A stretch of 32,579 bases of DNA, from NCBI GenBank assembly GCA_913058295.1, contig CAJXRD010000038.1, positions 1-32,579 of the forward strand, read 5' to 3'. Positions within the stretch are counted from its first letter, which is position 1. The number at the start of each line of letters is the position of its first letter. Below are positions 13,271-31,819 of this stretch, piece after piece. Origin of the DNA: an uncultured Flavobacteriales bacterium. GTDB lineage: Bacteria; Bacteroidota; Bacteroidia; Flavobacteriales; Flavobacteriaceae. The position numbers were made by a program, and so were the translations under genes. Under the pieces are notes generated by a model. The model was not told where the DNA came from. It saw only the letters and a list, made by a program, of their open reading frames with translations, and did no database searches.

Positions 13271-16063
13271 TTGAAGAATATACTATCTATATTGTTTTTA
13301 TTGCTAAGTATCGTAATTTATTCTCAAGAATTACCCCCAATAGAGAGTTTTTCCCCAAAAACCTATGATGCCGATAATCAAAATTGGGCAATATCACAAT
13401 CTCAAGAAAAATTTATTTACGTAGCAAATAACAAAGGTCTTTTAGAATATAATGGAGCTAAGTGGAATTTATACGCTACTCCTAATCAGACGGTTACTAG
13501 AGCTATACATGTAGTTGAAGATAAAATTTACACTGGCTGTTATATGGAATTCGGATATTGGAAAAAAGATATTCTAGGGATACTCAATTATTATTCATTA
13601 TCTGAAAAACTTACCAACCTTATTGAAGATGAAGAATTTTGGAAAATAATAAATGTCAAGCAATGGGTTTTATTTCAATCTTTAGATAGAATTTATATTT
13701 ACGACACTACAAGTGATACCTTTCATGTTATTGAACCAGAATCAGCTATTACAAAAATGTATTTGGTGGATGAAGAGGTTTATTTTCAGTCTTTCAATAA
13801 AGGGCTGTTTAAGATTGAAAACGGATTAGCTGTTCAGCAAATTAATGATTCAAGAATTAACGATTCTAGGGTTGTCAACATGTTTAGACATGAGACCGGT
13901 TTATTAATTCTAACTGCCAGAAAAGGTTTTTTTTATTTTAATAATGATCAATTAAACAAATGGAACATTGATGCAGACCCAAAGTTGGAAGGAATGACAA
14001 TTTATAGTGCACAAAAATTAAATGATGCATCTATAGTGTTGGGGACTATTTCGAATGGAATTGTTATGTTAGATTCTGCAGGCAAAATAATCTATCATAT
14101 TAATCAGTCTAGTGGATTACAAAATAATACCGTTCTTTCAATTTTCCAGGATATTGATAAAAACATTTGGCTAGGATTAGACAATGGAATAAACTTTATT
14201 AATAGCTATTCACCATTCAAAATTTATTATGATTTTACAGGAAACTTAGGTACAATTTATAGCTCGATTATTTATAAAGAACATATCTATTTAGGGACTA
14301 ATCAGGGTTTGTTTTATAAACCAATTAATGGGAATGACGTTTTTCGATTTGTAAAAGGTACAAATGGTCAGGTTTGGAGCTTGGATGAGATTAGGGGTGA
14401 ATTATTTTGTGGACATGACAATGGAACATTTATTATTCGAAACAAGGAAGCTTTTCATATTGCAAGTATTCAAGGAACATGGGGTGTAAAACCCATTAAG
14501 GGAAAGGATGATTTGTTGCTGCAAGGCAATTATGATGGGCTTAACATATTAGAAAAGAAAGGGGATAGTTGGTACTTAAGAAATAAAATTAAAGGCTTCG
14601 ATATTTCGTCTAGACACTTTGAATTATTTAATGACGAAACTGTTTTCATCAGTCATGAGTATAAAGGTGTTTTTAAAATTGAACTCGATAGCTCTTACTT
14701 GAAAGCAGTCAATATAGAAAAACTATTACCATTTGAAAAAGGTCTTAATTCGAGTTTAGAAAAATATAATGGCAACATATTTTACGCTAATAAGAATGGT
14801 ATTTATAAATACGATTTAAAACAAAATAAGTTTAATAGAGATTCAATAGTATCGCAGTTGTATACTAAGGAGGATTATATCTCTGGGAATTTAAATTCTG
14901 ATGATACAAATAAGCTTTGGAATTTTTCGAAATATAATTTATCCTATTTAGATACGGGTTCTTTAAGCGATAAACAAGAATTAATATCTATTGCATTGCC
15001 AGACAGACAAGTTAATAATATGAATGGATTTGAAAACATTTCCCACTTGTTTGATGGAGAGTATTTAATAGGAACATCAAATGGGTATATGATAATGGAC
15101 TTATCTAAATTGAAACCTAATAATTATTCTATATCTATTAACACAGTGGAAGCTTATAATTTAGAACTTGATCTTGAAAAAGCAATTTTAAGTGAAAAAG
15201 GATATTTCAAGAATAAAACCAATAATATTCACTTTTCATATAGTATCCCAGAGTACTATAGATATTTTGAAAAAAGATATCAATATCAACTGGAAGGATA
15301 TAATACTATATGGAGTGATTGGTCTACTGATTCTTCACATTTATTTGAAAACCTACCTTATGGGGATTATACTTTTAAAGTAAAAGGAAGAGTTGGTAAT
15401 TATGTTACTATTAATGAGGCAAACTATAATTTTACTATTGAAAAACCTTGGTATTTATCCGACCTATTTATAATTATATTTGTTATTGCGGCTTTGTTTT
15501 TACTTTTGTCTATACATTTATTATATAGAGCTTATTATAAAAAACAAAGAGAAAAGCTGCTAAGACAAACACAAAGAGATATAGAGTTAAAGGAACTTGA
15601 AAATAAGCAACAATTAGCAAATTTTGAAAATAAAGCTTTGCTTCAGGATATAGAAAGCAAGAATAGGGAATTAGCAATATCTACAATGAGCTTGATAAAG
15701 AAGAATGAGTTTTTAGGAAATATTAAAGATGAACTTAAAAAAAATAATTCTGACAATAGTTTAAAAGCTATTATAAAAATTATTGACAAGAATATTAATA
15801 ATACAAATGACTGGAAATTTTTTGAAGAAGCATTTAACAATGCAGATAAAGACTTTTTAAAGAAAGTTAAATCCAAGCATCCCTTACTCACTCCTAAAGA
15901 TTTAAAATTATGTGCATTTTTAAGGCTTAATTTATCTTCAAAAGAAATAGCACCTTTGCTCAATATTTCGGTAAGAAGTGTTGAAGTAAAGAGATATCGT
16001 TTACGAAAAAAAATGGATTTACTGCATGATACTGGCCTAACAAACTACATACTTGAATTATAG
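13271..16063 (+). CDS. One-component sensor: beta-propeller, Y_Y_Y, TM and LuxR-type HTH
   Basis: This 930-residue predicted membrane regulator has a signal peptide (KNILSILFLLLSIVIYSQ), about 600 residues of repeats typical of periplasmic regulator propellers (such as NKGLLEYNGAKW and DIDKNIWLGLDNGINFI), a Y_Y_Y domain near 648-725 (YQYQLEGYNTIWSDWS, LPYGDYTFKVKG), one transmembrane segment near 730-755, a coiled coil, and a C-terminal LuxR/NarL helix-turn-helix near 870-920 (LTPKDLKLCAFLRLNLSSKEI, NISVRSVEVKRYRLRKKM). It has the input half of hybrid two-component systems but no histidine kinase or receiver domain. The TTG start at 13271 is needed to keep the whole signal peptide. It lies directly upstream of the glucan-utilisation genes and is their most likely regulator, by position and by analogy with PUL sensors. 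Confidence 0.85.
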   Translation: MKNILSILFLLLSIVIYSQELPPIESFSPKTYDADNQNWAISQSQEKFIYVANNKGLLEYNGAKWNLYATPNQTVTRAIHVVEDKIYTGCYMEFGYWKKDILGILNYYSLSEKLTNLIEDEEFWKIINVKQWVLFQSLDRIYIYDTTSDTFHVIEPESAITKMYLVDEEVYFQSFNKGLFKIENGLAVQQINDSRINDSRVVNMFRHETGLLILTARKGFFYFNNDQLNKWNIDADPKLEGMTIYSAQKLNDASIVLGTISNGIVMLDSAGKIIYHINQSSGLQNNTVLSIFQDIDKNIWLGLDNGINFINSYSPFKIYYDFTGNLGTIYSSIIYKEHIYLGTNQGLFYKPINGNDVFRFVKGTNGQVWSLDEIRGELFCGHDNGTFIIRNKEAFHIASIQGTWGVKPIKGKDDLLLQGNYDGLNILEKKGDSWYLRNKIKGFDISSRHFELFNDETVFISHEYKGVFKIELDSSYLKAVNIEKLLPFEKGLNSSLEKYNGNIFYANKNGIYKYDLKQNKFNRDSIVSQLYTKEDYISGNLNSDDTNKLWNFSKYNLSYLDTGSLSDKQELISIALPDRQVNNMNGFENISHLFDGEYLIGTSNGYMIMDLSKLKPNNYSISINTVEAYNLELDLEKAILSEKGYFKNKTNNIHFSYSIPEYYRYFEKRYQYQLEGYNTIWSDWSTDSSHLFENLPYGDYTFKVKGRVGNYVTINEANYNFTIEKPWYLSDLFIIIFVIAALFLLLSIHLLYRAYYKKQREKLLRQTQRDIELKELENKQQLANFENKALLQDIESKNRELAISTMSLIKKNEFLGNIKDELKKNNSDNSLKAIIKIIDKNINNTNDWKFFEEAFNNADKDFLKKVKSKHPLLTPKDLKLCAFLRLNLSSKEIAPLLNISVRSVEVKRYRLRKKMDLLHDTGLTNYILEL

Positions 16064-16193: not shown

Positions 16194-16278
16194 CTTTAAA
16201 TAAATCGTTTTTTTTTGAAGTGTATGTTTTTTATTGCAGTTAAAATTGTAAGATTCACATTTTCTAGTATTATATTTA

Positions 16279-16358: not shown

Positions 16359-19300
16359 ATGAAAAACAACTTTTTGAGAATTTTTCTTTTCTTATTTACA
16401 GGTGTTCTGTTTTCGCAACAAAATTATGTGTCTGTTAAAAAAGACGCATCAGGAATGAAACTTCAAGTAAATGGAGAGGATTTTTTTATTAACGGAATGA
16501 ACTGGGATTATATTCCTATTGGGACCAATACTGTTAATGCAAATTTTTGGAAAAATTCGGACGATATTATTAAAGAGGGTCTTGATACTGAAATGTCACT
16601 CTTAAAGAATATGGGTGTTAATGTAATTCGTCAATATACTGGAGTTCCTGCTAAATGGATCCAATATATATATGAGAATTATGGTATATATACGATGTTA
16701 AATGACCCTTTTGGAAGGTATGGATTAACATTAGATGGGGTTTGGACTCCTGTAACGCTTTATGATGATCCAAAAACACAAGAGCATTTATTATCGGAAA
16801 TTGATAAGTTGGTTAATGAATACAAGAACACTCCTGGGCTGTTAATGTATCTTTTGGGAAATGAAAATAATTATGGCCTTTTTTGGCAAGGTGCAGAAAC
16901 AGAAGATTTTCCTGATGATGAACAAGAAAAGGCATTTATAGGTGAAACTAGAGGAAGGCCAATGTATAGGCTTATGAATGAGGCAGCAAAAAGATTAAAA
17001 GCTGTCGATAGTTCCCATCCAGTAGCTATATGTAATGGGGATGTTTTATTCATTGATCTTGTAGCAGAAGAATGTAAAGACATCGATATCTATGGTACAA
17101 ATACTTACAGAGGAGTTTCTTTCACAAATATGTTTGATGTAGTAAAAGAAAAATTAGATATGCCCCTTATGTTTACTGAATTTGGTGCGGATGCCTTTAA
17201 TGAGATAGAGAAGAAGGAAGATCAAAAAGCACAGGCATATTATATGCTTGGTAATTGGGAAGAAATTTATAAGAATGCTGCCGGTTTAAATAAGGCTGAA
17301 AATTCAATTGGTGGTTTTACCTTTCAATTTAGTGATGGCTGGTGGAAATATAAGTTCGATGACAGAAAAAATGCAGACATTCATGACAGTAACGCATCAT
17401 GGTCAAACGGAGGTTATCCTCATGATTTAGAAGCCTATGAGGTGAATAATATGAATGAAGAATGGTTTGGTATTTGTGCAAAGGGACCAACTAGTGAAAG
17501 AGGACTTTATGATCTTTATCCGAGAGCAGCTTATTATGCCTTAAAAGAAGCTCATAAATTAAATCCCTATGATGAAGGAGTGACTAGTGATTTTGTAGAT
17601 AATTATTTTAATAATATCCAAATAATGGATGCGGTGTTAAGAGCTAGAGGAGATAAAGCAGCTCTTGGTGCTCAGAGTACTCAAAAATTGAAACTCAGTA
17701 ATTTAAGAGCGGAGTTTACAACATTCAATACAGGGGGGTCTTTATTAACGACTCCAGATACACCGGATACTGATAGTGAAACCTATCCAGATCAACTAGG
17801 TTTTGATCATATGGAGTCTTTTTATATTGGTGTGGAAGCCAATCCAACATCCAATATGAGAGCTAATGTTAATGTAAACATTGTTGCTAATGTAGCTACT
17901 AACCCTATCGATGAAATATTTTATGAAAATAGGGCTCGTACCCGTTCTGTATCTACAGTAGATGGAAATGTGGAATTGTCTGATATAAATAGAGTTCAAG
18001 TATACCAGGCAGAATATGAATGGAATGCTAAAGATTTTGACTTGAGAGGTTTTTATAGAACTGGACATTATCATTGGGGTTATGAGGGTGACTTTTTTGG
18101 TTTATACCGAGAAGCGAATTATGGTCCTAATTTAGATATTTATAACGGTGAAATAAGTGGATTTGAAATCGATGGGAAAAGGGCTATAAATGGATTAAAA
18201 GTTGCCTTTGGACCACAACTATGGTGGGGAGCTAACCCGGCCATACTCTTAAAGTATCAACGTACAGTCGGAAAATTTGATTTGGCAGCAATCTATCATA
18301 ACGATATTGATGATGCTAATACTGCGGTATCATCTATTGCTGTTCCGCTTCCACAAACTCGAACACTTACAGTTTATGGGAAAACAAAAATCGGAGAAGT
18401 TGGTGTTGAATTTGGTGGAATATGGGGTGGTCAGCCTTTAAATGGAAGAACATTTCAAATTGCTGAAGGAGAATCGGGTAATTATACGGTATATGAAGAC
18501 GAGATCACAGGAAAAGATAATTGGGGAGCAAAAGCAAAAATCACTTATTCTAAAGGTTCATTAAATTGGTATGGTCAAGCTGCTTATATGGGTTTAGTCG
18601 CTAATGGAGGTCCAGACGCAACTCAAACTTACACAGGCTGGAAACTAAAAGATTCAGGAAGTGGAAATCAAGCAAACTTCCTTACTGGATTTACATATGC
18701 TTTTGGAGATTTACAAATAGCTCCTAATTTTTTATGGCAGAAACCTTTGGTAGATCCTATGCCAGGAGATGTTGGTGCGCCTGGAAGATTAAGAAATGTT
18801 ATTGACGACCCATTTGCGGTAAGAGCTAATAGAGAAACAGTGGGGGGAGAGATATTGCTTACTTATGACCAAACACCAGGAACCTGGTTTTATGAATGGG
18901 ATAATGATAGGGCAGAGGATGCAAAATTTGCAATGAATGCTGGATTTGTATATCGTCATCTACCAACATCTCTAGATGCAGCAATTGGTATTTTACCAGA
19001 TGGTCGAACAACATTTGCGTTTCCTGGAGCTCCAGTTTCACAAGATTTATGGGAGCTTCATACAAGAATTGTTTCAAAATTAAGTCCAGATATTGGAATT
19101 ATTGCCAATATGTATGTTGGTACCGAGCAAGCTAATGGAAGCCTTGGTCCTAATAGTGCTGTGGAAGATAGATTAATAGAGCGCTACGGTGGTGATATTA
19201 GGGTTATTTATAAAAAATTAAAACTTGTTCATTCCTTTAAAGTTAATGATTGGGGACCTTATGATTATCATCGTGATTTTAACCTTACCTATCCTATACA

Positions 19301-19529
19301 ATTAATGTTGGATTTATCGACAACACTTGGTAAACCAGATTGGTATATTTTACCTAACACACAAATTGGAATACGTGGTACTTGGAGGTCGCTTGATCAA
19401 TACTCCAATAGATACTCTCCAAATGAATCGCTACCATTTACAGGGCAACCAATTATAAGCCCTGTTGGATTTCCAAATGGAGACGAATGGGAAGTTAGAA
19501 CATATATTCATATTAACGTAGGAAAATAA
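16359..19529 (+). CDS. Clan GH-A glycosidase domain joined to an outer-membrane beta-barrel
   Basis: This 1056-residue protein begins with a signal peptide (KNNFLRIFLFLFTGVLFSQ). Residues about 22-465 look like a TIM-barrel glycosidase of the GH2/GH5-like type: LQVNGEDFFINGMNWDY at the start, LLGNENNYG with E169 as likely acid/base, and MFTEFGAD with E274 as likely nucleophile. From about residue 485 to the end (17811-19529) the protein changes to alternating, aromatic- and glycine-rich strands (HMESFYIGVEANP, LKVAFGPQLWWGANP, VGVEFGGIWGG, ending WEVRTYIHINVGK), which look like an outer-membrane barrel. No TonB plug or TonB box is seen, so it is not SusC. An in-frame start at 16215 is rejected because it adds 48 residues before the signal peptide. 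It is first in an operon with a binding lipoprotein and a GH16, so it probably cuts and/or admits beta-glucan. The exact GH family is unclear. Confidence 0.75.
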   Translation: MKNNFLRIFLFLFTGVLFSQQNYVSVKKDASGMKLQVNGEDFFINGMNWDYIPIGTNTVNANFWKNSDDIIKEGLDTEMSLLKNMGVNVIRQYTGVPAKWIQYIYENYGIYTMLNDPFGRYGLTLDGVWTPVTLYDDPKTQEHLLSEIDKLVNEYKNTPGLLMYLLGNENNYGLFWQGAETEDFPDDEQEKAFIGETRGRPMYRLMNEAAKRLKAVDSSHPVAICNGDVLFIDLVAEECKDIDIYGTNTYRGVSFTNMFDVVKEKLDMPLMFTEFGADAFNEIEKKEDQKAQAYYMLGNWEEIYKNAAGLNKAENSIGGFTFQFSDGWWKYKFDDRKNADIHDSNASWSNGGYPHDLEAYEVNNMNEEWFGICAKGPTSERGLYDLYPRAAYYALKEAHKLNPYDEGVTSDFVDNYFNNIQIMDAVLRARGDKAALGAQSTQKLKLSNLRAEFTTFNTGGSLLTTPDTPDTDSETYPDQLGFDHMESFYIGVEANPTSNMRANVNVNIVANVATNPIDEIFYENRARTRSVSTVDGNVELSDINRVQVYQAEYEWNAKDFDLRGFYRTGHYHWGYEGDFFGLYREANYGPNLDIYNGEISGFEIDGKRAINGLKVAFGPQLWWGANPAILLKYQRTVGKFDLAAIYHNDIDDANTAVSSIAVPLPQTRTLTVYGKTKIGEVGVEFGGIWGGQPLNGRTFQIAEGESGNYTVYEDEITGKDNWGAKAKITYSKGSLNWYGQAAYMGLVANGGPDATQTYTGWKLKDSGSGNQANFLTGFTYAFGDLQIAPNFLWQKPLVDPMPGDVGAPGRLRNVIDDPFAVRANRETVGGEILLTYDQTPGTWFYEWDNDRAEDAKFAMNAGFVYRHLPTSLDAAIGILPDGRTTFAFPGAPVSQDLWELHTRIVSKLSPDIGIIANMYVGTEQANGSLGPNSAVEDRLIERYGGDIRVIYKKLKLVHSFKVNDWGPYDYHRDFNLTYPIQLMLDLSTTLGKPDWYILPNTQIGIRGTWRSLDQYSNRYSPNESLPFTGQPIISPVGFPNGDEWEVRTYIHINVGK

Positions 19530-19541
19530 AAAATTAAGAAA

Positions 19542-21479
19542 ATGAAAACAAGAAAATTTAGTTATTATAAAACTGTATTGCTTATAGCAATCGCTATGAC
19601 GACATTTCTGAGTTGTGAAAGAGAGTTATCTGACGATGCAACTTTAGCAGGTTTTTCTACAAATGGTGAGATTTATGTAGATGGCTTTACGGCAGGATTA
19701 AATTATTATCCTTTTGCAGGTTCTTATTTAGAAGCTTTTAGTGTAGATACAGATACAAAATATGCCGGCACCACATCCATGCGCTTTGATATTCCTAATG
19801 TTGGAGATCCAAATGGAGCTTATTCTGGTGCTACTTTTCCAGTAGATTCCCCACGAGATTTGTCAGGTTACGATGCCTTGACATTTTGGGCGAAAGGTAC
19901 AGAGGGAAGAACCATTAATGAAATAGGTTTTGGAATAGATTTTATAGAAGACAAATATAAAAATCAGCTTCAAGAACCTTTGCAAATAACAACAAATTGG
20001 AGAAAATATACAATACCAATTCCAGATGCGGCTAAACTAACAGCGGAATCTGGTATGTTTTGGTATGCTGAAGGCCCCAATCCAGAAGATGGTTCAGGAT
20101 GGAGTTTTTGGATAGATGAATTACAATTTGAAAAATTGGGTACTGTAGCACAATCTAGACCAGCGCTTTATGAGGGTGAAGATTTAGTAGTACAGTCATT
20201 TATAGGTGCTGGAGGAGATTTAGGAGGTTTCGTTAGTCAAACATTTAATTTGGGGACTGGCGAAGATGTAACGGTTAAACCAGCGCCAAGTTATTTTAAA
20301 TGGACATCTTCAAACCCAGGCGTTGTAAGTATAGATGAAAATACAGGAGCTTTTAGTGCTCTTAGTGTTGGGCAAGCAGTTTTAACAGCATCTATAGCTG
20401 GCGTTGAAGCAGAAGGATCTCTCACCATTGAAGTATTGGGGGAATATGTGCCTGCACCAGTCCCTACTAGAGACCCTAGTACAGTCATCTCTGTTTTTAG
20501 TGATACTTATACCAATGTTCCAGTTGATTACTATAATGGATATTTTAATGGGGATGGTCAAACAACACAAGGTCAAAATGATATTTTTATTAATGGGGAT
20601 AATGTTATTTATTATACAGACTTAAATTTTGTGGGTATTGGGACATTTTTAGATGTTGCACCCATTAATGCTTCTGGTATGACGCATCTTCATGTAGATA
20701 TTAATGTGCAAGAAGTTATAGATGCCGGAGATCAATTAACACTTCAATTGTTAAATGGAGTACAGACTTCTAATGAAACTTCTGGTTCTATCGTTTTAAG
20801 TGATTCACAATTGTTATCTAATGAATGGGCTAGTTTTGATATTCCTCTATCCAGTTTTACGGGTTTAAATGCTCGAGATGCTATCGGACTCTTATTCTTT
20901 ATTTCTAATAACAGCTCTAATATCCCTACAATTTCGGATATTTTTGTAGATAATATCTATTATTATGCTGAGCCTACATCCCCAACAGATGCGCCAGAAG
21001 CACCAACGGAAGATGAAACTGCTAATAATGTAATTTCTGTATATAGTGATGCTTATACAGACATAGGAAATGATGGACTAAATAACTTTAATAGTGGTTC
21101 TATTTTATCCGTCGAAACAATTGCATCCAATGATGTTTTAAAATACACAAATTTAGACTTTACGGGCCTTGAATTTCTTGGGGCAAATATTATAGATGCT
21201 TCGGAATCAACAACCTTACACTTAGATCTATGGTCTCCAGATGCTAATGAGTTTAAAATAAAGCTTGTAGACTTTGGTCCTGATGGTGTATTTGGAGGAG
21301 GAGATGATAGCGAGCATGAAATAAATTTTGGTCCAAGCGAAATAGGAGAATGGATTGTTTTCGATATTCCATTATCCGATTTTGTAGGTCTTAATAGTAC
21401 AGAGAACTTAGCTCAAATAATATTGGTTAATGCTCCAACGGGGACACTTTTTGTAGATAATTTATACTTCTATAATTAA
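19542..21479 (+). CDS. Multi-domain glycan-binding lipoprotein (Big_2 plus carbohydrate-binding-like modules)
   Basis: This 645-residue lipoprotein has lipobox TTFLSC with C25 followed by the acidic ERELSDD, a pattern compatible with surface export in Bacteroidota. An N-terminal beta-sandwich at about 45-195 (YAGTTSMRFDIPN, YDALTFWAKG, FWIDELQFEK) resembles CBM/CIA30-type domains. A Big_2 Ig-like domain follows at about 205-300 (FKWTSSNPGVVSIDENTGAF). Two homologous modules at about 313-475 and 495-645 each start VISV-[FY]-SD-x-YT and end with FVDN-[IL]-YFY-like strands. No catalytic motif was seen. It lies 12 bases after the barrel-glycosidase gene and before GH16, so it is best read as a surface glucan-binding protein, a role analogous to SusD/SusE but unrelated in sequence. 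The function is inferred from domains and position. Confidence 0.78.
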   Translation: MKTRKFSYYKTVLLIAIAMTTFLSCERELSDDATLAGFSTNGEIYVDGFTAGLNYYPFAGSYLEAFSVDTDTKYAGTTSMRFDIPNVGDPNGAYSGATFPVDSPRDLSGYDALTFWAKGTEGRTINEIGFGIDFIEDKYKNQLQEPLQITTNWRKYTIPIPDAAKLTAESGMFWYAEGPNPEDGSGWSFWIDELQFEKLGTVAQSRPALYEGEDLVVQSFIGAGGDLGGFVSQTFNLGTGEDVTVKPAPSYFKWTSSNPGVVSIDENTGAFSALSVGQAVLTASIAGVEAEGSLTIEVLGEYVPAPVPTRDPSTVISVFSDTYTNVPVDYYNGYFNGDGQTTQGQNDIFINGDNVIYYTDLNFVGIGTFLDVAPINASGMTHLHVDINVQEVIDAGDQLTLQLLNGVQTSNETSGSIVLSDSQLLSNEWASFDIPLSSFTGLNARDAIGLLFFISNNSSNIPTISDIFVDNIYYYAEPTSPTDAPEAPTEDETANNVISVYSDAYTDIGNDGLNNFNSGSILSVETIASNDVLKYTNLDFTGLEFLGANIIDASESTTLHLDLWSPDANEFKIKLVDFGPDGVFGGGDDSEHEINFGPSEIGEWIVFDIPLSDFVGLNSTENLAQIILVNAPTGTLFVDNLYFYN

Positions 21480-21507: not shown

Positions 21508-22335
21508 ATGAAAGTGATGAAAAAAAATATCATAAATATAATTACTAAAGGGCTTGGATTAATAACACTTTGTTTTGTTGTTATTAGTTGTTCTAGTGAT
21601 GAAACACAAACCGTAACAACATTAGATCAGCTTGTAATGCAAGATGAATTTGATATAGATGGTGCTTTAAATAGCGAACTATGGACTTATAATATAGGTA
21701 CGGGAAATGATGGTTGGGGTAATAATGAATTACAGTATTATACCGATCGTCCAGAAAATATTGTTGCAGAAAATGGCACGTTAAAAATCACTGCTAGGCA
21801 AGAATCCTTTGAAGGATCCTCTTATACTTCTGCTAGAATATTAACACAGGGTAAGTTTGAGCAAAAATATGGACGTTTCGAAGCACGAATGCAATTGCCT
21901 TGGGGACAAGGAATGTGGCCAGCATTTTGGTTACTCGGATCAAATATTGATGACGTAAGTTGGCCTAATTGTGGTGAAATTGACATCATGGAAAATCGGG
22001 GGTCTGAACCAACACTTATCTCAAGTGCCCTTCACGGCCCTGGTTATTCTGGAGGAAACCCCATTTTCAAAGCCTATGAATTGGTGGATAGTCGTTTTGA
22101 TAATGAGTTTCACATCTTTGGTATAGAATGGGCTCCAGGTTACATTAATTTTTATGTTGACGACGTACTATATAACCAAATAACACCAAGCGATGCTTCG
22201 GGTGATTGGGTATTTGACCAACCATTTTTCATAATTATTAATTTGGCAGTAGGAGGTAATTTTGGTGGGCCACCAAATGAAAATACTGTTTTTCCACAAT
22301 CCTTGTTGGTGGATTATATAAGGGTTTATGAATAA
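21508..22335 (+). CDS. GH16 endo-beta-1,3-glucanase (laminarinase), lipoprotein
   Basis: This 275-residue enzyme is predicted to cut internal beta-1,3 bonds of laminarin-type glucan. Lipobox VVISC is followed by SSDE, again compatible with surface display. The GH16 jelly roll is complete: WGNNELQYYTDRPEN, GRFEARMQLPWGQGMWPAFWLLG, then the catalytic GEIDIMEN with E157 (nucleophile), D159 and E162 (acid/base), followed by HGPGYSGG and FDNEFHIFGIEWAPG. The WPAFWLLG and EIDIME motifs are those of bacterial laminarinases (GH16_3-like). There is no extra CBM; the preceding lipoprotein may supply binding. It is the last gene of the first operon and is followed by a terminator. An ATG three codons later could also be the start. 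Confidence 0.93.
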   Translation: MKVMKKNIINIITKGLGLITLCFVVISCSSDETQTVTTLDQLVMQDEFDIDGALNSELWTYNIGTGNDGWGNNELQYYTDRPENIVAENGTLKITARQESFEGSSYTSARILTQGKFEQKYGRFEARMQLPWGQGMWPAFWLLGSNIDDVSWPNCGEIDIMENRGSEPTLISSALHGPGYSGGNPIFKAYELVDSRFDNEFHIFGIEWAPGYINFYVDDVLYNQITPSDASGDWVFDQPFFIIINLAVGGNFGGPPNENTVFPQSLLVDYIRVYE

Positions 22336-22521: not shown

Positions 22522-25500
22522 ATGAATAACAATCCAATATATATAGGTAATAAGCTGTCTTCATTAAATGAAAACGAAATTAATGGTGAGTTAATTGATT
22601 TCGAGAAGGAAGTATATTATAAAATTTCAAATAGTAATGCGATGAGACCATTTTTTATGAGTCTCGTAAGTAATTCTAATCATTGGATGTTTATTTCTAG
22701 TAATGGGGGATTGTCTGCAGGAAGAAAAGATGCTGACAACGCATTATTCCCGTACTATACGGATGATAAAATAACAGAATCTACCGAAACTACTGGAAGC
22801 AAAACAATACTTCAAGTACATTTAAATGACAAAACATTTTTATGGGAACCGTTTTCGAATAACTATAGAGGCGTTTATACTATAAAAAGAAATCTTTACA
22901 AAAATAAATACGGCAACAAAGTTATTTTTGAGGAAATTAATGAAGATTTAGGCCTAATCTATAGATATCATTGGAACTCTAGTAATCTATATGGTTTTGT
23001 AAAAAAATCGACATTGCTTAATAATTCTAATTCTAATATTTCTGTAACAGTATTAGATGGTTTGCAAAATATAGTTCCATATGGGGTGGGATCAGACCTG
23101 CAAAATGGCTATAGTAATTTGGTTGATGCCTATAAAAAAAGCGAATTGCAAGCAGATTCTGGAATAGGGATATTTGCATTAAGTGCCATAATTGTTGACA
23201 AAGCTGAACCTAGCGAAGCATTAAAGTCAAGTATAGTTTGGTCAATGGGTTTAAATAATCCTAAATATCTTGTTTCGTCTTTACAACTTGAAAATTTTAG
23301 AGTTGGTAAACCAATATTTCAAGAGACGGATATTAAAGCTGAAAAAGGCGCTTATTTTATTTGTTCAGACTTAGAATTAGAAGCTCTAGAAAAACAAGAC
23401 TGGATGTTTGTTGCGAATGTAAATCAAAGTATTAGTGACCTTGTAAATATTTCAGAAAAAATTAAAAAAACACCGAATTTAATGAGCCTGGTTCAAGAGG
23501 ATATTGAAATGGGTACAAAACATTTATTGGAACTAGCTGGAGCAGCAGATGCAATGCAGATTAGTGGGAACAAATTGCGAAATATGCGTCATTTTTCTAA
23601 TACACTTTTCAATATTATGCGAGGAGGTATTTTTGATGACAATTATAAAATTGAAAAGAGCGATTTCGTAAAATACATAGCGAATGCTAATAAAAAGGTG
23701 TTCAAGAAAAAGGGAAACATTTTAGCTCAATTGCCAGAGGCTTTTGATTTAAATGTTATTAAAAAATTTGCAGAATCTGATGAAGACAAAAACTTCAAAC
23801 GCTTATGCTTTGAATATTTACCTTTAAAATTTAGTAGAAGACATGGAGATCCAAGTCGTCCATGGAATAAGTTTTCCATAAATACTAGAAACGAAATTGA
23901 TGGCTCAAAAATATTAGATTACGAAGGAAATTGGCGGGATATATTTCAGAATTGGGAGGCACTTGCCCATTCGTATCCAGAGTTTATCGAAAGTATGATT
24001 CATAAGTTTCTTAATGCAACGACTTTTGATGGTTATAATCCATACCGTGTTACAAAAGGGGGCTTTGATTGGGAAACCATTGAGCCAGATGACCCTTGGT
24101 CTTACATTGGGTATTGGGGAGACCATCAAATAATTTATTTGCTTAAGTTTTTAGAGATTATCGAAAGTCATTACCCTAATAAATTGGCAAGCTATTTTAA
24201 TCAAGAAGTATTTGTATATGCCAATGTGCCTTATAAAATAAAACCATATAAAGACTTATTGGCTAACCCAAAAGACACTATTGATTTTGACACAGAATTG
24301 GATTCTAAAATTCTTCAAAAAAGAAAGGAACTTGGTGTAGATGGAGCTTTATTGAGAGATGAGAATTTTTTCATTTATAAAGTAAATCTCATTGAAAAAT
24401 TATTAGCCACAGTTTTAGCCAAATTATCCAACTTTATTCCAGAAGGAGGTATATGGCTTAATACCCAAAGGCCAGAATGGAACGATGCCAACAATGCACT
24501 TGTAGGTAATGGTGTTTCCATGGTAACCTTATATTATTTGCGACGGTTTTTAAGTTTCTTTGAAAAAATCGCGGAGAATATGACTGATGAAACTTCTGAG
24601 ATTTCTGTAGAGCTATCTATATTCTTTGAAAAGGTTTTAAGAACATTTAAGGATAACAAAGAAATACTAAACGGCAAAGTCTCTGATAAAGACAGAAAAT
24701 CTGTTTTAGATGCATTAGGGCAAGCGGGGAGTGATTATAGAATTAAGATCTATGAAGATGGATTTACAAGTGATAAAGGAACTATTTCCAAAAAGGATTT
24801 AGTAACGTTTTTACAAATATCAAAAGCCTATTTAGAACATTCTATACGTGCTAATCAACGGGAGGATAAACTATATCATGCTTATAACCTTATGACGGTT
24901 ACCAATGATTCGGAAATTTCAATTTCCTATTTATCAGAAATGTTAGAAGGCCAAGTAGCTGTATTAAGTTCGGGATATATTTCAGGAGAAAAATCCTTAG
25001 AAGTTTTAAATGCTTTAAAAAACAGTGCATTGTTCAGACCAGATCAATATAGTTATTTATTATATCCAGATAAGCAATTATCGCGTTTTGTCGATAAAAA
25101 CAATGTGCCAAATGCTGCAATTGAAAACTCCGAATTGCTAAAGCAATTATTATGCGATGACAATAAGCAAATTATAGAAAAAGATATAACAGGACATTAT
25201 CATTATAATGGAAACTTCAATAATGCCGATTCATTAAAAGAGGCTTTAAATAGTTTACCGGAACAATATCAAAGTCTTGTAATTAAAGATAGAAAAGCAC
25301 TATTAAACACTTTTGAAGAATTATTTAATCATAAGGCATTCACTGGCCGTTCTGGGACATTTTTTGGCTATGAAGGACTTGGGTCTATTTATTGGCACAT
25401 GGTTTCAAAACTATTATTAACAGTTCAAGAAACTTGTTTGTTAGCCTCTAAGAATAGTGAAAACGAAGTCGTAATAGGTGGCTTACTTGATCATTATTAT

Positions 25501-25980
25501 CAAATTAATGAAGGCATTGGCGTTCATAAATCGCCTAAACTTTATGGCGCTTTTCCAACCGATCCATATTCGCATACACCAGCAGGTAAAGGAGCTCAGC
25601 AGCCTGGAATGACAGGGCAAGTTAAAGAAGATGTTCTTTGTCGATTTGGAGAATTAGGTGTATTTGTAGAAAACGGTCACTTATTGTTTTATCCGAGATT
25701 ATTAAGAAGACAAGAATTTTTAGACGCGCCAAGAGAATTTATTTATACAGATATTAATAAAGAATCGAAATCGCTTCCATTGGAAAAAAACACAATATGC
25801 TTTACCTATTGTCAAATCCCAATTGTTTATAAGCTTGGTGTTTCTAAAGGTATTCAAGTTATTTATAATGATGAAGCAATCAAAAATTTTGATGATTTGC
25901 AACTGAACTTAGAAGTAAGTAAAAAAGTATTTAAAAGAACAGGTGATATTAATAGAATAATAGTGTCACTAGATAAATAA
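22522..25980 (+). CDS. Beta-1,3-oligoglucan phosphorylase, GH149-like
   Basis: This 1152-residue cytoplasmic protein without a signal peptide is related to the inverting GH94/GH149/GH161 phosphorylases. These release alpha-glucose 1-phosphate from the non-reducing end of beta-glucans using phosphate. Key segments are RRHGDPSRPWNKFSI, GYWGDHQIIYLLKFLE, then GGIWLNTQRPEWNDANNALVG with D655 in WNDA as the likely general acid, and the C-terminal phosphate-site-like stretch HTPAGKGAQQPGMTGQVKED. The size and the RPEWNDANNAL motif fit GH149 beta-1,3-glucan phosphorylases of Bacteroidota better than the shorter GH94 cellobiose phosphorylases. GH161 is the main alternative. First gene of an operon with GH17, GH30, a symporter and a second GH17, which supports laminari-oligosaccharides as its substrate. 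Confidence 0.83.
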   Translation: MNNNPIYIGNKLSSLNENEINGELIDFEKEVYYKISNSNAMRPFFMSLVSNSNHWMFISSNGGLSAGRKDADNALFPYYTDDKITESTETTGSKTILQVHLNDKTFLWEPFSNNYRGVYTIKRNLYKNKYGNKVIFEEINEDLGLIYRYHWNSSNLYGFVKKSTLLNNSNSNISVTVLDGLQNIVPYGVGSDLQNGYSNLVDAYKKSELQADSGIGIFALSAIIVDKAEPSEALKSSIVWSMGLNNPKYLVSSLQLENFRVGKPIFQETDIKAEKGAYFICSDLELEALEKQDWMFVANVNQSISDLVNISEKIKKTPNLMSLVQEDIEMGTKHLLELAGAADAMQISGNKLRNMRHFSNTLFNIMRGGIFDDNYKIEKSDFVKYIANANKKVFKKKGNILAQLPEAFDLNVIKKFAESDEDKNFKRLCFEYLPLKFSRRHGDPSRPWNKFSINTRNEIDGSKILDYEGNWRDIFQNWEALAHSYPEFIESMIHKFLNATTFDGYNPYRVTKGGFDWETIEPDDPWSYIGYWGDHQIIYLLKFLEIIESHYPNKLASYFNQEVFVYANVPYKIKPYKDLLANPKDTIDFDTELDSKILQKRKELGVDGALLRDENFFIYKVNLIEKLLATVLAKLSNFIPEGGIWLNTQRPEWNDANNALVGNGVSMVTLYYLRRFLSFFEKIAENMTDETSEISVELSIFFEKVLRTFKDNKEILNGKVSDKDRKSVLDALGQAGSDYRIKIYEDGFTSDKGTISKKDLVTFLQISKAYLEHSIRANQREDKLYHAYNLMTVTNDSEISISYLSEMLEGQVAVLSSGYISGEKSLEVLNALKNSALFRPDQYSYLLYPDKQLSRFVDKNNVPNAAIENSELLKQLLCDDNKQIIEKDITGHYHYNGNFNNADSLKEALNSLPEQYQSLVIKDRKALLNTFEELFNHKAFTGRSGTFFGYEGLGSIYWHMVSKLLLTVQETCLLASKNSENEVVIGGLLDHYYQINEGIGVHKSPKLYGAFPTDPYSHTPAGKGAQQPGMTGQVKEDVLCRFGELGVFVENGHLLFYPRLLRRQEFLDAPREFIYTDINKESKSLPLEKNTICFTYCQIPIVYKLGVSKGIQVIYNDEAIKNFDDLQLNLEVSKKVFKRTGDINRIIVSLDK

Positions 25981-25994
25981 ATAAAAAATAATAC

Positions 25995-27287
25995 ATGAAA
26001 ACAATTCAAATACAGGCTTTTGTTCTATGTATAGGGATATTTACGTTTTCATGTGTGGATTCAACCAACAAAATGAATAATACTAGTCTTGTGAAAGAAA
26101 AAAAGAACCTAATGGCTAAGGACATTTTGGGTAATCCAAAGTATTTGGCAATTTCCTATGGAGGCTATCGTAAAATATCTAGGGATAGTCAACCAAGCCT
26201 CCAAGAGCTTAAAAATGACATGAAAATGTTATCGGCTATGGGTATAAAAATATTAAGAACCTATAATGTACAATTAGATCAAGCAGCAAATTTGTTGCAA
26301 GCAATAAAAGAATTGAAATCTGAAGATCCGAGTTTTGAGATGTACGTGATGCTCGGTGCTTGGATAGATTGTTTACATGCATGGACAAATCAAGCTCCAA
26401 ATCATGATGTTGAGAGCCCAAATAACCAAGCAGAGATTGAACGAGCTGTCAAACTAGCGAATAAATACCCAGACATTGTAAAAATCATTGCAGTTGGCAA
26501 TGAAGCTATGGTACAATGGGCGACGAGTTATTATGTACAGCCAAAGGTCATTTTAAAATGGGTCAACCATTTGCAAGAATTAAAGAAAGAGGGGAAACTT
26601 TCAAAAGATCTGTGGATAACAAGTTCAGATGATTTTGCATCTTGGGGTGGTGGAGACCCTGCTTATCGAAATCAGGATTTAGAAGATTTAATACATGCCG
26701 TTGATTATATTTCGATGCATAGCTATCCATTTCATAATACACATTATAATCCAGAATTTTGGGGAGTACCAAGCGATGAAGATCAATTAACAAGTATAAA
26801 AAAAATTGAAACGGCATTGCATCGTGCTGTTCAATTTTCAAGAAAACAGTACGATAGTGTTTCCAACTATGCAAAAAGTTTAGGAGTAGACAAGCCTATT
26901 CATATTGGTGAAACAGGATGGGCAAGTATTTCTAACGGTCATTATGGGCCAAATGGATCTAAAGCAGCAGATGAGTATAAGCAAGCTTTGTATTACAAAC
27001 TTATTCGAGAATGGACAAATTCAGAAAACTTGTCTTGTTTTTATTTTGAAGCCTTTAATGAAAAATGGAAAGATGCTCATAATACAAAAGGATCCGAAAA
27101 CCACTTTGGACTTTTTACAATTGATGGTAAAGCAAAATACTCGATTTGGAATTTAGTAGATAAAGGTGTTTTTGATGGATTGACTAGAAATGGAAATGAA
27201 ATAACAAAAACGTATGAAGGAGATGTTAAAGCATTAATGATAGATGTTTATGTGCCACCAACAAAAAACGAAGTAATAGCGCATTGA
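25995..27287 (+). CDS. GH17 beta-1,3-glucan hydrolase, lipoprotein
   Basis: This 430-residue lipoprotein has lipobox FTFSC with C20. The GH17 TIM barrel begins after a short linker (YLAISYGGYRK). E170 in IAVGNEAM is the probable acid/base and E306 in IHIGETGWAS the nucleophile. MHSYPFHN, FYFEAFNEKWK and the final FGLFTIDGKAKYSIW fit the family. Bacterial GH17 enzymes from marine Flavobacteriia act on linear beta-1,3-glucan, so this one probably shortens debranched laminarin. The residues after the cysteine (VDSTNKMNN) lack a strong acidic cluster, so a periplasm-facing position is more likely than the surface; this is inference. It starts 14 bases after the phosphorylase stop. Confidence 0.9.
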   Translation: MKTIQIQAFVLCIGIFTFSCVDSTNKMNNTSLVKEKKNLMAKDILGNPKYLAISYGGYRKISRDSQPSLQELKNDMKMLSAMGIKILRTYNVQLDQAANLLQAIKELKSEDPSFEMYVMLGAWIDCLHAWTNQAPNHDVESPNNQAEIERAVKLANKYPDIVKIIAVGNEAMVQWATSYYVQPKVILKWVNHLQELKKEGKLSKDLWITSSDDFASWGGGDPAYRNQDLEDLIHAVDYISMHSYPFHNTHYNPEFWGVPSDEDQLTSIKKIETALHRAVQFSRKQYDSVSNYAKSLGVDKPIHIGETGWASISNGHYGPNGSKAADEYKQALYYKLIREWTNSENLSCFYFEAFNEKWKDAHNTKGSENHFGLFTIDGKAKYSIWNLVDKGVFDGLTRNGNEITKTYEGDVKALMIDVYVPPTKNEVIAH

Positions 27288-27313
27288 TAATAATAGCGCT
27301 TAAATTAAATAAT

Positions 27314-28807
27314 ATGAAAGCTGTAAATCGTGTAATCTGTTTTCTTTTATTAGTAATTATGGTAAGTTGTAGTAAAAATCAAGAACCATTAAAAGTTGAG
27401 GTTTACGAAACTTCTGCTAGTGGAAATAAGTTGGCTAAAATCACCAATTTTTCGCCATTAGATTCTAAAAGTTTGATAAAGATTCTTCCAAATAAAGAAT
27501 ACCAAACCATTACAGGAATTGGAGGCTCATTTACGGAATCTTCAGCTTCATTGCTTCAACAATTGAGTAAAGAAAATCGAGATAAAGTATTAAAGGCATA
27601 TTTCAGTAAAGAAGGTGCAAATTATTCTCTCACTAGAACACATATAAGTTCCTGTGATTTTTCATTGAAAAATTATACCTATGCTCCACTTGAAGGAGAT
27701 GTTGAATTGAATAGTTTTTCAATTGATGAAGATCGAGATGATTTAATTCCTATGATTAAAGACGCTCAGTCCATATCTGAAGATGGTTTTAAAATTATTG
27801 CTTCCCCATGGACAGCACCGCCTTGGATGAAAGATAATAAAGCATTTGTGGGTGGAAAATTATTGCCAGAATTTTACGATTCATTTGCATTGTTTTTTAC
27901 TAAATATTTGGACGCTTATAAAGCTGAAGGGATTGATATATGGGGCTTAACTCCTGTTAATGAACCTCACGGAAATGGTAATAACTGGGAAAGTATGCAC
28001 TTTTCTCCAGAGGAAGAAACAGATTTTGTTCAAAACCATTTAGGCCCAAAACTAGAAACTGAAGGGAAAAGTCATGTTAAGATTCTGGGTTACGATCAAA
28101 ATAGAGCAGGTATAAAAGAATGGGTAGATGTTATGTATAAGGATGAGGCTTCTTCTAAATATTTTGATGGAACAGCGATTCATTGGTATGAAAGCACCTA
28201 TGAAGTCTTTCCAGAAGCCTTACAATATGCTCATCAGAAAGCTCCTGATAAATATTTAATTGAAACAGAAGGTTGTGTGGATTCCGAAATACCAAAATGG
28301 CAAGACGATGCTTGGTATTGGAAAAAAGAAGCAACTGATTGGGGTTGGGATTGGGCAGCTGAAGATCAAAAGTATTTGCATCCAAAATATGCGCCTGTCA
28401 ACCGCTATGCTAGAGATATTATTGGCTGCTTAAATAATTGGGTAGATGGTTGGGTTGACTGGAATATGGTTTTAGATCGACAAGGTGGTCCAAATTGGTT
28501 TGAAAATTGGTGTGTTGCACCTGTAATAGTAGACCCTGATAATGATGAGGTTTATTTTACGCCTATTTATTATATAATGGCTCATTTCAGTAAATATATG
28601 AGACCTGGAGCAATTGTTATTGGTGTTGAAAATTCAGATAAAGATTTGATGGTAACCGCTGCTAAGAACCCAGATGGTTCAATGGTAGTAATTCTGTTCA
28701 ATGAAGGAAATGATACTAAAAACTTCAAATTGAATTTAGATAAAAAAAATATAGATATAAAGATAAGCGCACAAGCGATACAAACTATTATGATTCCTAA
28801 ATCATAA
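27314..28807 (+). CDS. GH30 glucan beta-1,6-glucosidase-like lipoprotein
   Basis: This 497-residue lipoprotein has lipobox VIMVSC with C19. The GH30 fold shows QTITGIGGSFTESSA near the start, SLTRTHISSCDFS, then IASPWTAPPWMKDNK. E217 in TPVNEPHG is the probable acid/base and E319 in ETEGCVD the nucleophile, followed by the short C-terminal beta domain. Characterised GH30 enzymes of marine laminarin loci remove beta-1,6-linked glucose branches, which fits this cluster; specificity is inferred. The ATG at 27314 is chosen over a TTG at 27284 that overlaps the GH17 stop, because it gives a standard lipoprotein signal. C-SKNQEP has no acidic cluster, which suggests periplasmic orientation. Confidence 0.9.
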   Translation: MKAVNRVICFLLLVIMVSCSKNQEPLKVEVYETSASGNKLAKITNFSPLDSKSLIKILPNKEYQTITGIGGSFTESSASLLQQLSKENRDKVLKAYFSKEGANYSLTRTHISSCDFSLKNYTYAPLEGDVELNSFSIDEDRDDLIPMIKDAQSISEDGFKIIASPWTAPPWMKDNKAFVGGKLLPEFYDSFALFFTKYLDAYKAEGIDIWGLTPVNEPHGNGNNWESMHFSPEEETDFVQNHLGPKLETEGKSHVKILGYDQNRAGIKEWVDVMYKDEASSKYFDGTAIHWYESTYEVFPEALQYAHQKAPDKYLIETEGCVDSEIPKWQDDAWYWKKEATDWGWDWAAEDQKYLHPKYAPVNRYARDIIGCLNNWVDGWVDWNMVLDRQGGPNWFENWCVAPVIVDPDNDEVYFTPIYYIMAHFSKYMRPGAIVIGVENSDKDLMVTAAKNPDGSMVVILFNEGNDTKNFKLNLDKKNIDIKISAQAIQTIMIPKS

Positions 28808-28831: not shown

Positions 28832-30472
28832 ATGTCACACTATAAAACATTAGCAAAAGACAAAGTCCCATTTTTACAAAAATCCGCTTTTGGTTCAGGA
28901 CATTTAGTACTTAACCTATTACCAGGAGCTTTAGGGGTTTTTATGTTTTTTTTGGTAACTGCATTTGGAATGGATCCATGGTTAGCAGGTTTATTAGGTG
29001 GTTTACCTAGAATATTTGATGCTATCACCGACCCAATAATGGGTTTTATTTCTGATAATACAAAATCAAAATGGGGAAGACGTAGACCCTATATTTTTAT
29101 TGGAGCAATTTTAAGCGGTATTCTGTTTGCGCTATTATTCCAAATGAGTGAAGACAATTCGGTTATGTTTAATTTTTGGTATTTTCTCCTTATGTCTTTA
29201 TTGTTTCTTATTGGCAATACCATGTATGCTACTCCACTTGTAGGTTTAGGATATGAAATGACTTCCGATTATAATGAACGTACACGTTTAATGGCATTTG
29301 CAAATACTATTGGTCAATTTGCTTGGATGTTAGTGCCATGGTTTTGGGTGATTATTGCGGACCCAACGGTGTTTGCATTAAGTGATGAAGCACTAAGAGC
29401 TATAGGGGAAATGGGACTTAAGGGAGATGAATTACAAAAAATAACAGACGAAAAATTACAAGCAAATGGTGTTCGTAAATTATCATTAACGGTTGGTTTA
29501 GTATGTGGGGTTCTTGGGATATTACCAGCTTTATTCTGCAAAGGGATTGATGCTGGAAAAATGGAAAAAAGAAAAAGAATAAGCATTGGTACACTTGGAT
29601 CTAGCTTTAAAGATTTATTTCAAGGCGTCAAAGAAGTATCTAAAAATAAACCTTTTATGAAGTTATGTGGAGCTACATTCTTGGTATTTAACGGATTCCA
29701 AATGGTAGCTTCATTTAGTTTTTTCATCATTGTTTTTTATATCTATAATGGTAACTATGGGGACTCTGGCACTTGGCCAGCTTGGTTCGCTTCGCTTACG
29801 GCAGTAGTGACCGCTTTTATGGTTATTCCAATCATTTCTAGTATGGCTAGTAAATGGGGAAAACGAAAAGCATTTATAATTTCTACGGTAATTTCAATTT
29901 TTGGATATATTTTAAAATGGTGGGGTTTTGATAATTCATTAAATGCGCAATTCAATGGATCAGGATTTGGTAAAGGATTAAACAGTTTTGTGGCTTCAAT
30001 ATTTGATACAATCAATCCTTTTCTTGATAGCGTTGGTATGTCTTGGTTTAGTATGGATATAAGTCAAGGTGGTCCTTGGTTAATGTTTTTACCTATTCCA
30101 TTTATGGCTTTTGGTTTAGGAGGGTTATTTACTTTAATGATGAGTATGACTGCAGATGTTTGTGATTTAGATGAACTAGAAAATGGAATGCCAAGAAAAG
30201 AAGGAACTTTTGGAGCAATTTATTGGTGGATGGTGAAGTTGGGTCAGGCAATTGCTTTAGTACTTGGTGGTGCAATTTTAACCTTAGTTGGTTTCGACGA
30301 AGGAGCTGTCAATCAATCAGCTGAGACCATGACAAATCTACGTATCGCTGATATTGTTATACCGGCTGTTACAGCTGCTTTTGCTATTTGGATCATGTGG
30401 AAATATAACTTAAATGAGGATAGAGCTAGAGAAATAAAGACTGTATTAGTAAAACGAAGAGGAGAATTATAA
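28832..30472 (+). CDS. GPH-family sugar:cation symporter (MFS)
   Basis: This 546-residue inner-membrane transporter has about 12 hydrophobic segments. The GPH/MelB-type signature is in the first cytoplasmic loop, near residues 60-90: RIFDAITDPIMGFISDNTKS followed by KWGRRRPY. YEMTSDYNERTRL and the late MSMTADVCDLDELENG, MPRKEGTFGAIYWWMVKLGQA also fit. Members move di- or oligosaccharides with Na+ or H+. Set between periplasmic GH17/GH30 and cytoplasmic GH17/phosphorylase genes, it is the probable importer of laminari-oligosaccharides. It is longer than MelB (about 470), with extra loop sequence after helix 6 (GEMGLKGDELQKITDEKLQ) and near residue 375. Confidence 0.88.
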   Translation: MSHYKTLAKDKVPFLQKSAFGSGHLVLNLLPGALGVFMFFLVTAFGMDPWLAGLLGGLPRIFDAITDPIMGFISDNTKSKWGRRRPYIFIGAILSGILFALLFQMSEDNSVMFNFWYFLLMSLLFLIGNTMYATPLVGLGYEMTSDYNERTRLMAFANTIGQFAWMLVPWFWVIIADPTVFALSDEALRAIGEMGLKGDELQKITDEKLQANGVRKLSLTVGLVCGVLGILPALFCKGIDAGKMEKRKRISIGTLGSSFKDLFQGVKEVSKNKPFMKLCGATFLVFNGFQMVASFSFFIIVFYIYNGNYGDSGTWPAWFASLTAVVTAFMVIPIISSMASKWGKRKAFIISTVISIFGYILKWWGFDNSLNAQFNGSGFGKGLNSFVASIFDTINPFLDSVGMSWFSMDISQGGPWLMFLPIPFMAFGLGGLFTLMMSMTADVCDLDELENGMPRKEGTFGAIYWWMVKLGQAIALVLGGAILTLVGFDEGAVNQSAETMTNLRIADIVIPAVTAAFAIWIMWKYNLNEDRAREIKTVLVKRRGEL

Positions 30473-31397: not shown

Positions 31398-31819
31398 TTT
31401 AATATTATAGTTGAATAAGCTGCTTTTTTTTAAAGTTAGGTTATAGTTTATTAGTATTGAAACGTTTAAAAGCCAAATCAAAAATATCTTTTTGCTAAAT
31501 AAATTGAATTAAGAATAGATATCACTCTACATTACCTATACAAATCTAGTTTTTAAAGAATTTGAGCACCATTATTACAATAAGAAATACTCTTCAACCT
31601 TATTCTATATCAGCCTTTAAGTGTTTTTCGTATTATATTTTTTTATTGTATGTTTTTTGTAGCGGTGAAAAATAAGGATATCACATTCTATTGACCTTAT
31701 ATTTGAAAATACCGTAAAAATATTTTACAAACATTAAACAATTCGCAACTATTTAACATTTCATTGTTATGTTGGAAATACTGCAAATCATAAACTATAA
31801 AAAATTAATCTCAATAATT
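31398..31819. other. 422-base gene-free spacer with repeated motif
   Basis: No gene or clear terminator is visible after the GH17 stop. The spacer holds two similar stretches of about 30 bases, 31511-31541 and 31671-31702, both containing GATATCAC and then ATT(g)ACCT-type sequence. It also holds an exact -7 box at 31698-31705 and the inverted repeat GTAAAA-ata-TTTTAC at 31714-31728. A minus-strand open frame from 31795 to 32121 is a shadow of the gene at 31820. Confidence 0.5.
31698..31705 (+). promoter_or_regulatory. -7 promoter box for the terminal secreted-protein gene
   Basis: TATATTTG matches TAnnTTTG exactly, giving a leader of roughly 110 bases before the ATG at 31820. It overlaps the second copy of the repeated motif in this spacer. 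Confidence 0.45.

Follow-up and report, generated by a model that had tools for sequence, protein, structure and literature searches.

A clan GH-A glycosidase joined to a predicted plug-less outer-membrane barrel in glucan operons of Bacteroidota, a candidate glucan entry protein with a built-in enzyme

The window analyzed here spans an entire contig of 32,579 bases (CAJXRD010000038.1) from an uncultured Flavobacteriales bacterium, whose draft genome (GCA_913058295.1) comprises 3.07 Mb in 95 contigs and is 97.6% complete. At the head of a run of glucan-degradation genes, positions 16359-19529 of its forward strand encode one protein of 1,056 aa. Structural modeling leaves little doubt that this protein has two parts, a secreted glycosidase of clan GH-A and, directly after it, a plug-less outer-membrane β-barrel of about 24 strands. 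Its best explanation, which we favor on balance, is an outer-membrane entry protein for glucan with a built-in enzyme. Many marine bacteria that feed on algal sugars appear to make such a half-pore, half-enzyme protein, of which family databases recognize just the enzyme half.

The gene is a single frame that opens with ATG and contains 0 internal stops, and it is its own single match in the source genome (one copy). The longest possible frame would begin with a TTG at 16215; we prefer the ATG at 16359 because relatives start at the same signal peptide. Using tblastn, we found at least 552 stretches in genome_contigs that encode a relative, and the best 80 of these are referred to below as the 80 loci. 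Conservation was read from an alignment of 70 full-length proteins, namely the window protein and those of 69 of the 80 loci; L023, L025, L043, L046, L058, L068, L070, L074, L084, L089, and L092 were omitted manually, no fixed criterion being applied. AlphaFold2 (AF2) models were built from this 70-sequence alignment. The signal peptide (residues 1-20; 16359..16418) is modeled as a helix at residues 2-17, includes a glutamine (Q20) that is invariant in 70/70 proteins, and shows no lipobox. A cysteine occurs at residues 13-35 in 10 of 66 fused proteins, and none of these, judged by eye, belongs to a lipobox.

Between residues ~22 and 436 (16422..17666), AF2 builds an eight-stranded TIM core in which N168-E169 lie behind β-4 (strand 161-166) and E274 at β-7 (strand 270-275). 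This is the clan GH-A layout, in which an acid/base after β-4 is preceded by asparagine and the nucleophile, a glutamate, follows β-7 (PMC7157763). The original prediction had read a clan GH-A glycosidase from E169 in the motif GNENN (codon 16863-16865) and E274 in TEFG (codon 17178-17180); both positions proved exact, and both residues are invariant in all 70 aligned proteins, as well as in 66 fused and 13 stand-alone domains, four of the latter being distant relatives. The two-part split that it proposed also stood, with limits that had to be moved: the enzyme ends near residue 436 rather than 465, and the barrel extends over ~445-1054 rather than 485-1056.

Within clan GH-A, the enzyme is a member near GH2 and GH158. 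The Pfam model for the GH2 TIM barrel (PF02836, GH2_C) matches residues 73-283 with 30 bits against a cut-off of 21 (E 3.8e-7). The top structural matches found by Foldseek are the GH158 laminarinases 9oro (4.4e-13) and 6pal (3.7e-11), followed by GH2 glucuronidases, and structure alignments with these two GH158 enzymes show just 12-15% identity. A family profile compared by sequence gave E-values of 7e-4 for a β-galactosidase, 0.03 for GH158(Pro), and 0.045 for BuGH158. GH2 enzymes carry N-terminal sugar-binding and immunoglobulin-like domains ahead of the TIM barrel. No model for these domains matched the fusion protein at E ≤ 0.01, where only PF02836 did, and the first TIM strand (residues 44-48) begins about 23 residues after the signal peptide; we therefore rejected the full GH2 β-galactosidase identity suggested by the Pfam and NCBIfam hits. 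The C-terminal immunoglobulin-like domain known from BuGH158 (PMC7157763) is likewise not present: the barrel comes in its place, and stand-alone relatives end near residue 420-436, apart from short tails. Given the operon context and a fold whose nearest solved examples are GH158 laminarinases, the enzyme is most likely active on β-1,3-glucan. Four distant single-domain relatives (L007-L010; 336-347 aa) were also seen, two of which (L007 and L008) adjoin GH30 genes. L008, whose neighbors are a GH30 gene and a CBM30 gene that also has a GH17 match below threshold, is the sole one of the four that we compared with the Protein Data Bank (PDB); its E-values were 1.3e-9 for GH158(Pro) and 7e-5 or weaker for GH2 enzymes, and it could help to place the enzyme family.

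A short linker (residues 437-444; 17667..17690, from the AF2 secondary structure), poorly conserved at 441-444 (0.45), leads to strand 1 of the barrel domain (residues 445-1056; 17691..19526). No Pfam family matched this part of the window protein at E ≤ 1, and the best E-value among the 70 aligned members was 0.042. The AF2 model is all-β and consists of long antiparallel strands, 24 by our count. When the barrel model was compared with the PDB by Foldseek, the best 50 of 306 matches (E ≤ 0.001) were all outer-membrane barrels by title; those listed include BtuB, FepA, PfeA, OprC, ZnuD, LptDE, FimD, OpdQ, OccK7, MOMP, and the Mtr complex. Hydrophobicity alternates within the strands (2.57 vs. 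1.43 in shuffled sequences, with 0 of 2,000 shuffles as high). Odd-numbered connections are long (20, 34, 29, 7, 18, 31, 26, 30, 29, 14, 15, and 28 residues; n = 12, median 27) and even-numbered ones short (2, 3, 6, 2, 2, 2, 2, 20, 2, 2, and 9 residues; n = 11, median 2; p 1.8e-4), although these tests are not fully independent of the model because the strands were taken from it. Polar, lumen-side strand residues are better conserved than lipid-side ones (0.836 vs. 0.727). The loops at 569-597, 620-626, and 965-979 reach 0.96-0.99, whereas loops overall (0.784) are no better conserved than strands (0.781). The model thus combines an even strand number, amphipathic antiparallel strands, alternating turns and loops, and a signal peptide, as in outer-membrane barrels. 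The TonB plug (PF07715) was not found in the fusion protein at E ≤ 0.01, whereas the same model detects SusC of L188 and L191. Both the barrel and the missing plug had been proposed originally, and neither a soluble β-sandwich nor a β-helix, either of which would have spoken against them, appeared in the models.

The same two-domain order recurs widely. The fusion is encoded in 80 of the 80 loci (1,025-1,068 aa, no internal stop; one runs off its contig), whose hosts are, by record title, Flavobacteriaceae, Saprospiraceae, and Lewinellaceae, with Muriicola jejuensis and Hanstruepera marina among the cultured ones, and the aligned fused proteins are 67-82% identical where aligned. Among 58 further genomes close to that of the window, five encode it at 64-71% identity. 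In a sample of 395 phylum genomes, 54 gave matches: 33 carry the fusion (own genome included), nine a stand-alone enzyme (51-64% identical), one (G685) a copy in pieces, and 11 weak matches only. Residues 408-1056 were also searched against 395 class genomes (own included); 17 were found, all in frames of 1,041-1,109 aa, and in none of these genomes did we see an intact gene for the barrel alone. No relative was found on viral contigs.

The stand-alone enzymes are scattered among the fused ones. In a quick tree of 79 enzyme domains (66 fused, nine stand-alone, and four outgroup; 20 of the 80 loci used and L095-L099 not included), the stand-alone state arises in five places among fused forms; these 5 changes are all forced by starred branches, in a tree with a long outgroup branch and with L189 at an unresolved base. 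In L196, the 150 nt just after the enzyme stop codon (3471-3620), ahead of GH149, resemble barrel residues 444-493 (30% of 50 identical, E 1.7e-4 in a search of the nine stand-alone loci), and judged by this similarity the stretch is a relic of the first strands of a lost barrel. No match better than E 1 was obtained in the other eight. Because of the five forced changes and the L196 relic, we prefer repeated loss of the barrel, and the stand-alone enzyme as ancestral state was rejected. Adjoining the stand-alone enzyme of L189 (12775-18963) are a PorV-like gene, a PPIC-type peptidyl-prolyl isomerase, and a 1,124-aa protein without Pfam match (E ≤ 0.001).

Directly downstream of the fusion lies a gene for a 645-aa lipoprotein (19542..21479, forward strand), with acidic residues following its lipobox (CERELSDD). 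Its CBM30/CBM11-like and Big_2-like matches are weak and fall short of the respective cut-offs, and neither SusD model (PF07980 or PF14322) was listed for it at E ≤ 0.01. A related gene is found in 79 of the 80 loci, in 75 of them directly downstream on the same strand (median gap 11 nt). In a search of 30 genomes, with kinship uncorrected, the body of this lipoprotein was present in 20/20 fused genomes and in 0/9 stand-alone ones, two of which match its C-terminal part only (residues 288-644), and the genome with the broken fusion copy (G685) gave no match. It is adjacent to the fusion in 19 of the 20 genomes, one of which (G750) shows just a piece of it because the contig ends there, and lies ~9 kb off in G606.

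Short turns of outer-membrane barrels usually face the periplasm. In the model, the start of strand 1 and the end of strand 24 are both on the short-turn side, so the enzyme attached to strand 1 should be periplasmic unless threaded through the pore. We consider it likely, on the strength of this model, that the enzyme domain sits in the periplasm below the pore; our confidence is tempered slightly by the last helix ahead of the barrel (422-436), which is clear in only 5/9 stand-alone enzymes. The preceding helix (410-418) is found in 9/9. Since these helices recur in enzymes that have no barrel, probably little ahead of strand 1 serves as a threading device. Thus, to judge from these comparisons, most of the region before strand 1 belongs to the enzyme, with only ~8 residues certain to be linker. 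Such a topology, on which the original prediction had taken no position, would make passage followed by cutting the likely order of events.

Acidic residues behind the lipobox cysteine are the surface-export signal of Bacteroidota lipoproteins. Among rows in which a lipobox was found by a simple pattern (which sometimes hits inside the signal peptide), a net count of at least 2 acidic residues followed the cysteine in 83% of 29 partner-lipoprotein rows, 65% of 60 GH16 rows, 0 of 33 GH17 rows, and 10% of 10 GH30 rows; no lipobox was found in 31/60, 22/82, 18/51, and 7/17 rows, respectively. Stand-alone enzymes inspected by eye comprise three without a lipobox, five with a lipobox lacking a clear acidic cluster, and one that is cut off. 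This pattern agrees with an enzyme in the periplasm and with a predicted surface position of the partner lipoprotein and GH16.

In the window genome (G000), SusD was not found with either PF07980 or PF14322, and we therefore regard the barrel as a good candidate for the entry of laminarin-type glucan; the genome has 18 plug matches, 17 of them above the cut-off. PF07980 was run on the genomes of 46 of the 80 loci, where it finds SusD in 46/46, and on a second set of 26 fused genomes (the window genome, five near relatives, and 20 of the 32 other fused genomes of the phylum sample), where a match is missing in 6/26, the window genome included. Near the loci themselves, SusD was sought with a model made from 30 SusD sequences, and receptors by blastp with 17 receptors of the window genome and two SusC. 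SusD is present in 12 of the 80 fused loci. Neither SusD nor a TonB-dependent receptor is found in 42 of the 55 loci with complete 10-kb flanks, and where both SusC and SusD occur they are mostly upstream on the same strand. Two stand-alone loci (L188 and L191) encode SusC and SusD ahead of GH16, the stand-alone enzyme, and GH149. Barrel and lipoprotein together look like an importer pair that would act beside or instead of SusC/SusD, with no rule of exchange.

We reason that the barrel is, reasonably probably, a pore that carries glucan. Indirect support for this entry role is fair and comes from the window genome without detected SusD, the absence of the lipoprotein where the barrel is missing, and SusC/SusD in the two stand-alone loci. 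The partner lipoprotein and GH16 would catch and cut laminarin-type β-1,3-glucan on the cell surface; chains or fragments would then traverse the barrel, where the conserved loops may bind sugar. The glycosidase domain, hanging at the periplasmic mouth, would cut the emerging glucan, which could prevent leakage back out, and it might partly close the hole. The GH17 and GH30 enzymes, predicted to be periplasmic, the major facilitator superfamily (MFS) transporter, and a presumably cytoplasmic GH149 would complete the breakdown. We hypothesize that cutting is in this way coupled to passage.

Several observations weigh against parts of this reading. Model confidence is moderate (mean pLDDT 69.9 and pTM 0.49 for the whole protein; 68.7 and 0.67 for the barrel alone), barrel TM-scores on the query are 0.25-0.44 among the matches listed, and the barrel could have 22-26 strands. 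In 4/9 stand-alone enzymes, the last helix is absent or dissimilar, and a conservation-based search for an interface returned no face specific to fused forms, only two positions, both classed as helix. SusD is present in one or two copies in six of seven other genomes of the genus (G012 shows none), so that, with a draft 97.6% complete, a copy may have been missed in the window genome. It also lies within 10 kb in 11 of the 55 fully flanked fused loci, which argues that the barrel is not simply a SusC/SusD substitute, and SusC/SusD were not found in seven of the nine stand-alone loci (stretches of 3 to 20 kb each). On these last two counts we rejected replacement of SusC/SusD as a rule.

Two other functions for the barrel were considered, both of which we judge unlikely. 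In one, the barrel serves as translocator or anchor for an enzyme that is threaded to the outside as in an autotransporter, giving an additional surface endo-glucanase. The gross domain order is that of type V autotransporters, helices (410-436) precede strand 1, the last of them being inconstant in stand-alone enzymes, and the operon encodes other proteins of surface type. However, the recurrence of helix 410-418 in all nine stand-alone enzymes and of the last helix in five would leave little for threading, ~24 strands compare with 12 in classical autotransporters, no autotransporter Pfam model matched, and the stand-alone enzymes, judged by eye, begin with an ordinary signal peptide or with a lipobox that no clear acidic cluster follows. 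In the other, to which we give marginally less weight, the barrel only anchors and docks a complex formed on the surface with the lipoprotein and GH16, and glucan enters through other porins or TonB-dependent transporters. In its favor, the window genome has 18 plug matches, 17 of them over the cut-off, SusC/SusD stand beside the fusion in a minority of loci, and the conserved loops could be protein contacts. Yet no SusD was found in that genome, a lipid anchor would suffice and is apparently present in about half of the stand-alone enzymes, and the conserved side of the strands is the lumen side.

It is very improbable that the C-terminal half is a soluble β domain or that the fusion is an artifact of gene calling. 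The want of a Pfam family for the barrel part and the moderate model confidence would be in keeping with this, but the frame is free of internal stops in all 80 loci at 67-82% identity where aligned, the best 50 of 306 PDB matches are barrels by title, and the alternation and loop tests point the same way. Our preferred reading is that of an entry protein with its own enzyme. Laminarin makes up one of the largest flows of sugar in the sea, and TonB-driven SusC/SusD pairs, which are also used to predict diets, have been taken to explain how Bacteroidota import it. If the preferred reading is true, a well-studied pathway contains a transport component that has escaped notice, with family models reading the fusion only as a glycosidase; clusters without SusC/SusD may be complete, and a second route of glycan import exists.

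As originally proposed, the fusion gene heads its operon: it opens a same-strand run that follows a regulator (13271..16063) with a Y_Y_Y match and with Reg_prop and LuxR-type helix-turn-helix matches below the cut-off; no histidine kinase is among the matches listed for it. A related regulator gene occurs in 68 of the 80 loci, at 40% identity or more in 62. After the fusion and the partner lipoprotein follow, all on the forward strand, a GH16 lipoprotein with acidic residues behind the lipobox cysteine, likely a surface endo-glucanase (21508..22335; Pfam E 8.1e-26; GH16 is present in 76/80 loci); a GH149 1,3-β-D-glucan phosphorylase in which no signal peptide was seen (22522..25980; NCBIfam NF058639, 1,798 bits against a cut-off of 1,150); a GH17 lipoprotein, by inspection of the protein start (25995..27287; Pfam E 1.7e-7); a GH30 lipoprotein with a TTG start in the list of open reading frames (27284..28807; Pfam E 7.4e-78); and an MFS_2/GPH-type inner-membrane sugar transporter (28832..30472; Pfam MFS_2 E 1.2e-56). 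Gaps within the run are -4 to 28 nt, except for 186 nt ahead of GH149. A separate GH17-like gene (30489-31397; Pfam GH17 E 1.6e-10) begins 16 nt after the transporter. In L196, one 783-aa frame spans both the MFS and the GH17-like parts, resembling the GH17-transporter fusion of Formosa, of which the window shows the unfused state. The protein at 31769-32578, cut by the contig end, has no Pfam match at E ≤ 0.01 and has 33-58% identical relatives in 7/80 laminarin loci.

Searches of titles and abstract openings, with preprints and most subscription journals outside the scope, turned up no description of a glycoside hydrolase fused to an outer-membrane barrel as a means of uptake. Type V autotransporters, which have an N-terminal passenger and a C-terminal barrel (12 strands in classical ones), share the domain order; unlike them, the window protein has a larger barrel without a family match and apparently little room for a threading helix. 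The GH158 laminarinases BuGH158 (6pal) and GH158(Pro) (9oro) are the best structural matches of the enzyme and have the same catalytic layout (PMC7157763), and differ from it by the low identity (12-15%), the weak profile E-values (0.045 and 0.03, respectively), and the C-terminal immunoglobulin-like domain that the window enzyme lacks. Closest in gene content is a laminarin cluster of Muricauda with a LuxR-type regulator, a “GH2 β-glycosidase,” GH16, GH149, GH17, GH30_1, and an MFS transporter (PMC13188888), in which the “GH2” gene occupies the position that the fusion has in the window; by its position in the cluster it is probably the same fusion. That description makes no mention of a barrel, “outer membrane” occurring 0 times in the main text. 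An unclassified “GH0” reported in expressed laminarin clusters, e.g., GH149-GH0-GH30_1-GH17, one such cluster being without susCD (PMC10108472), may be an enzyme of the window type. GH149 clusters with and without susCD have been distinguished (PMC5827456), and SusC/D are mentioned with laminarin clusters elsewhere (PMC11345257, PMC6298971).

FbGH17b of Formosa, a GH17 enzyme fused to a membrane-spanning transporter, of which its authors knew no counterpart in other bacteria (PMC6246565), likewise unites transporter and glycanase in one polypeptide of a laminarin cluster. Its enzyme belongs to another family and its transporter is of MFS type (PMC10108472), therefore of the inner membrane. The SusC/SusD utilisome, as presented in PMC7618045, resembles the window system in combining an outer-membrane barrel, a surface lipoprotein, and a surface glycanase in one locus; in the window, the barrel is plug-less, the lipoprotein matches no SusD model, and the enzyme, probably periplasmic, shares one polypeptide with the barrel. 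Tentatively, and with less conviction than for the entry role itself, we suggest a class of plug-less importers of about 24 strands in which a periplasmic glycanase replaces the plug, passage is made one-way by cutting, and a surface lipoprotein other than SusD takes part, serving laminarin Bacteroidota-wide and in some genomes without SusC/SusD. The fusion would then be an outer-membrane glycan importer, none of whose parts matches an importer family tested here.

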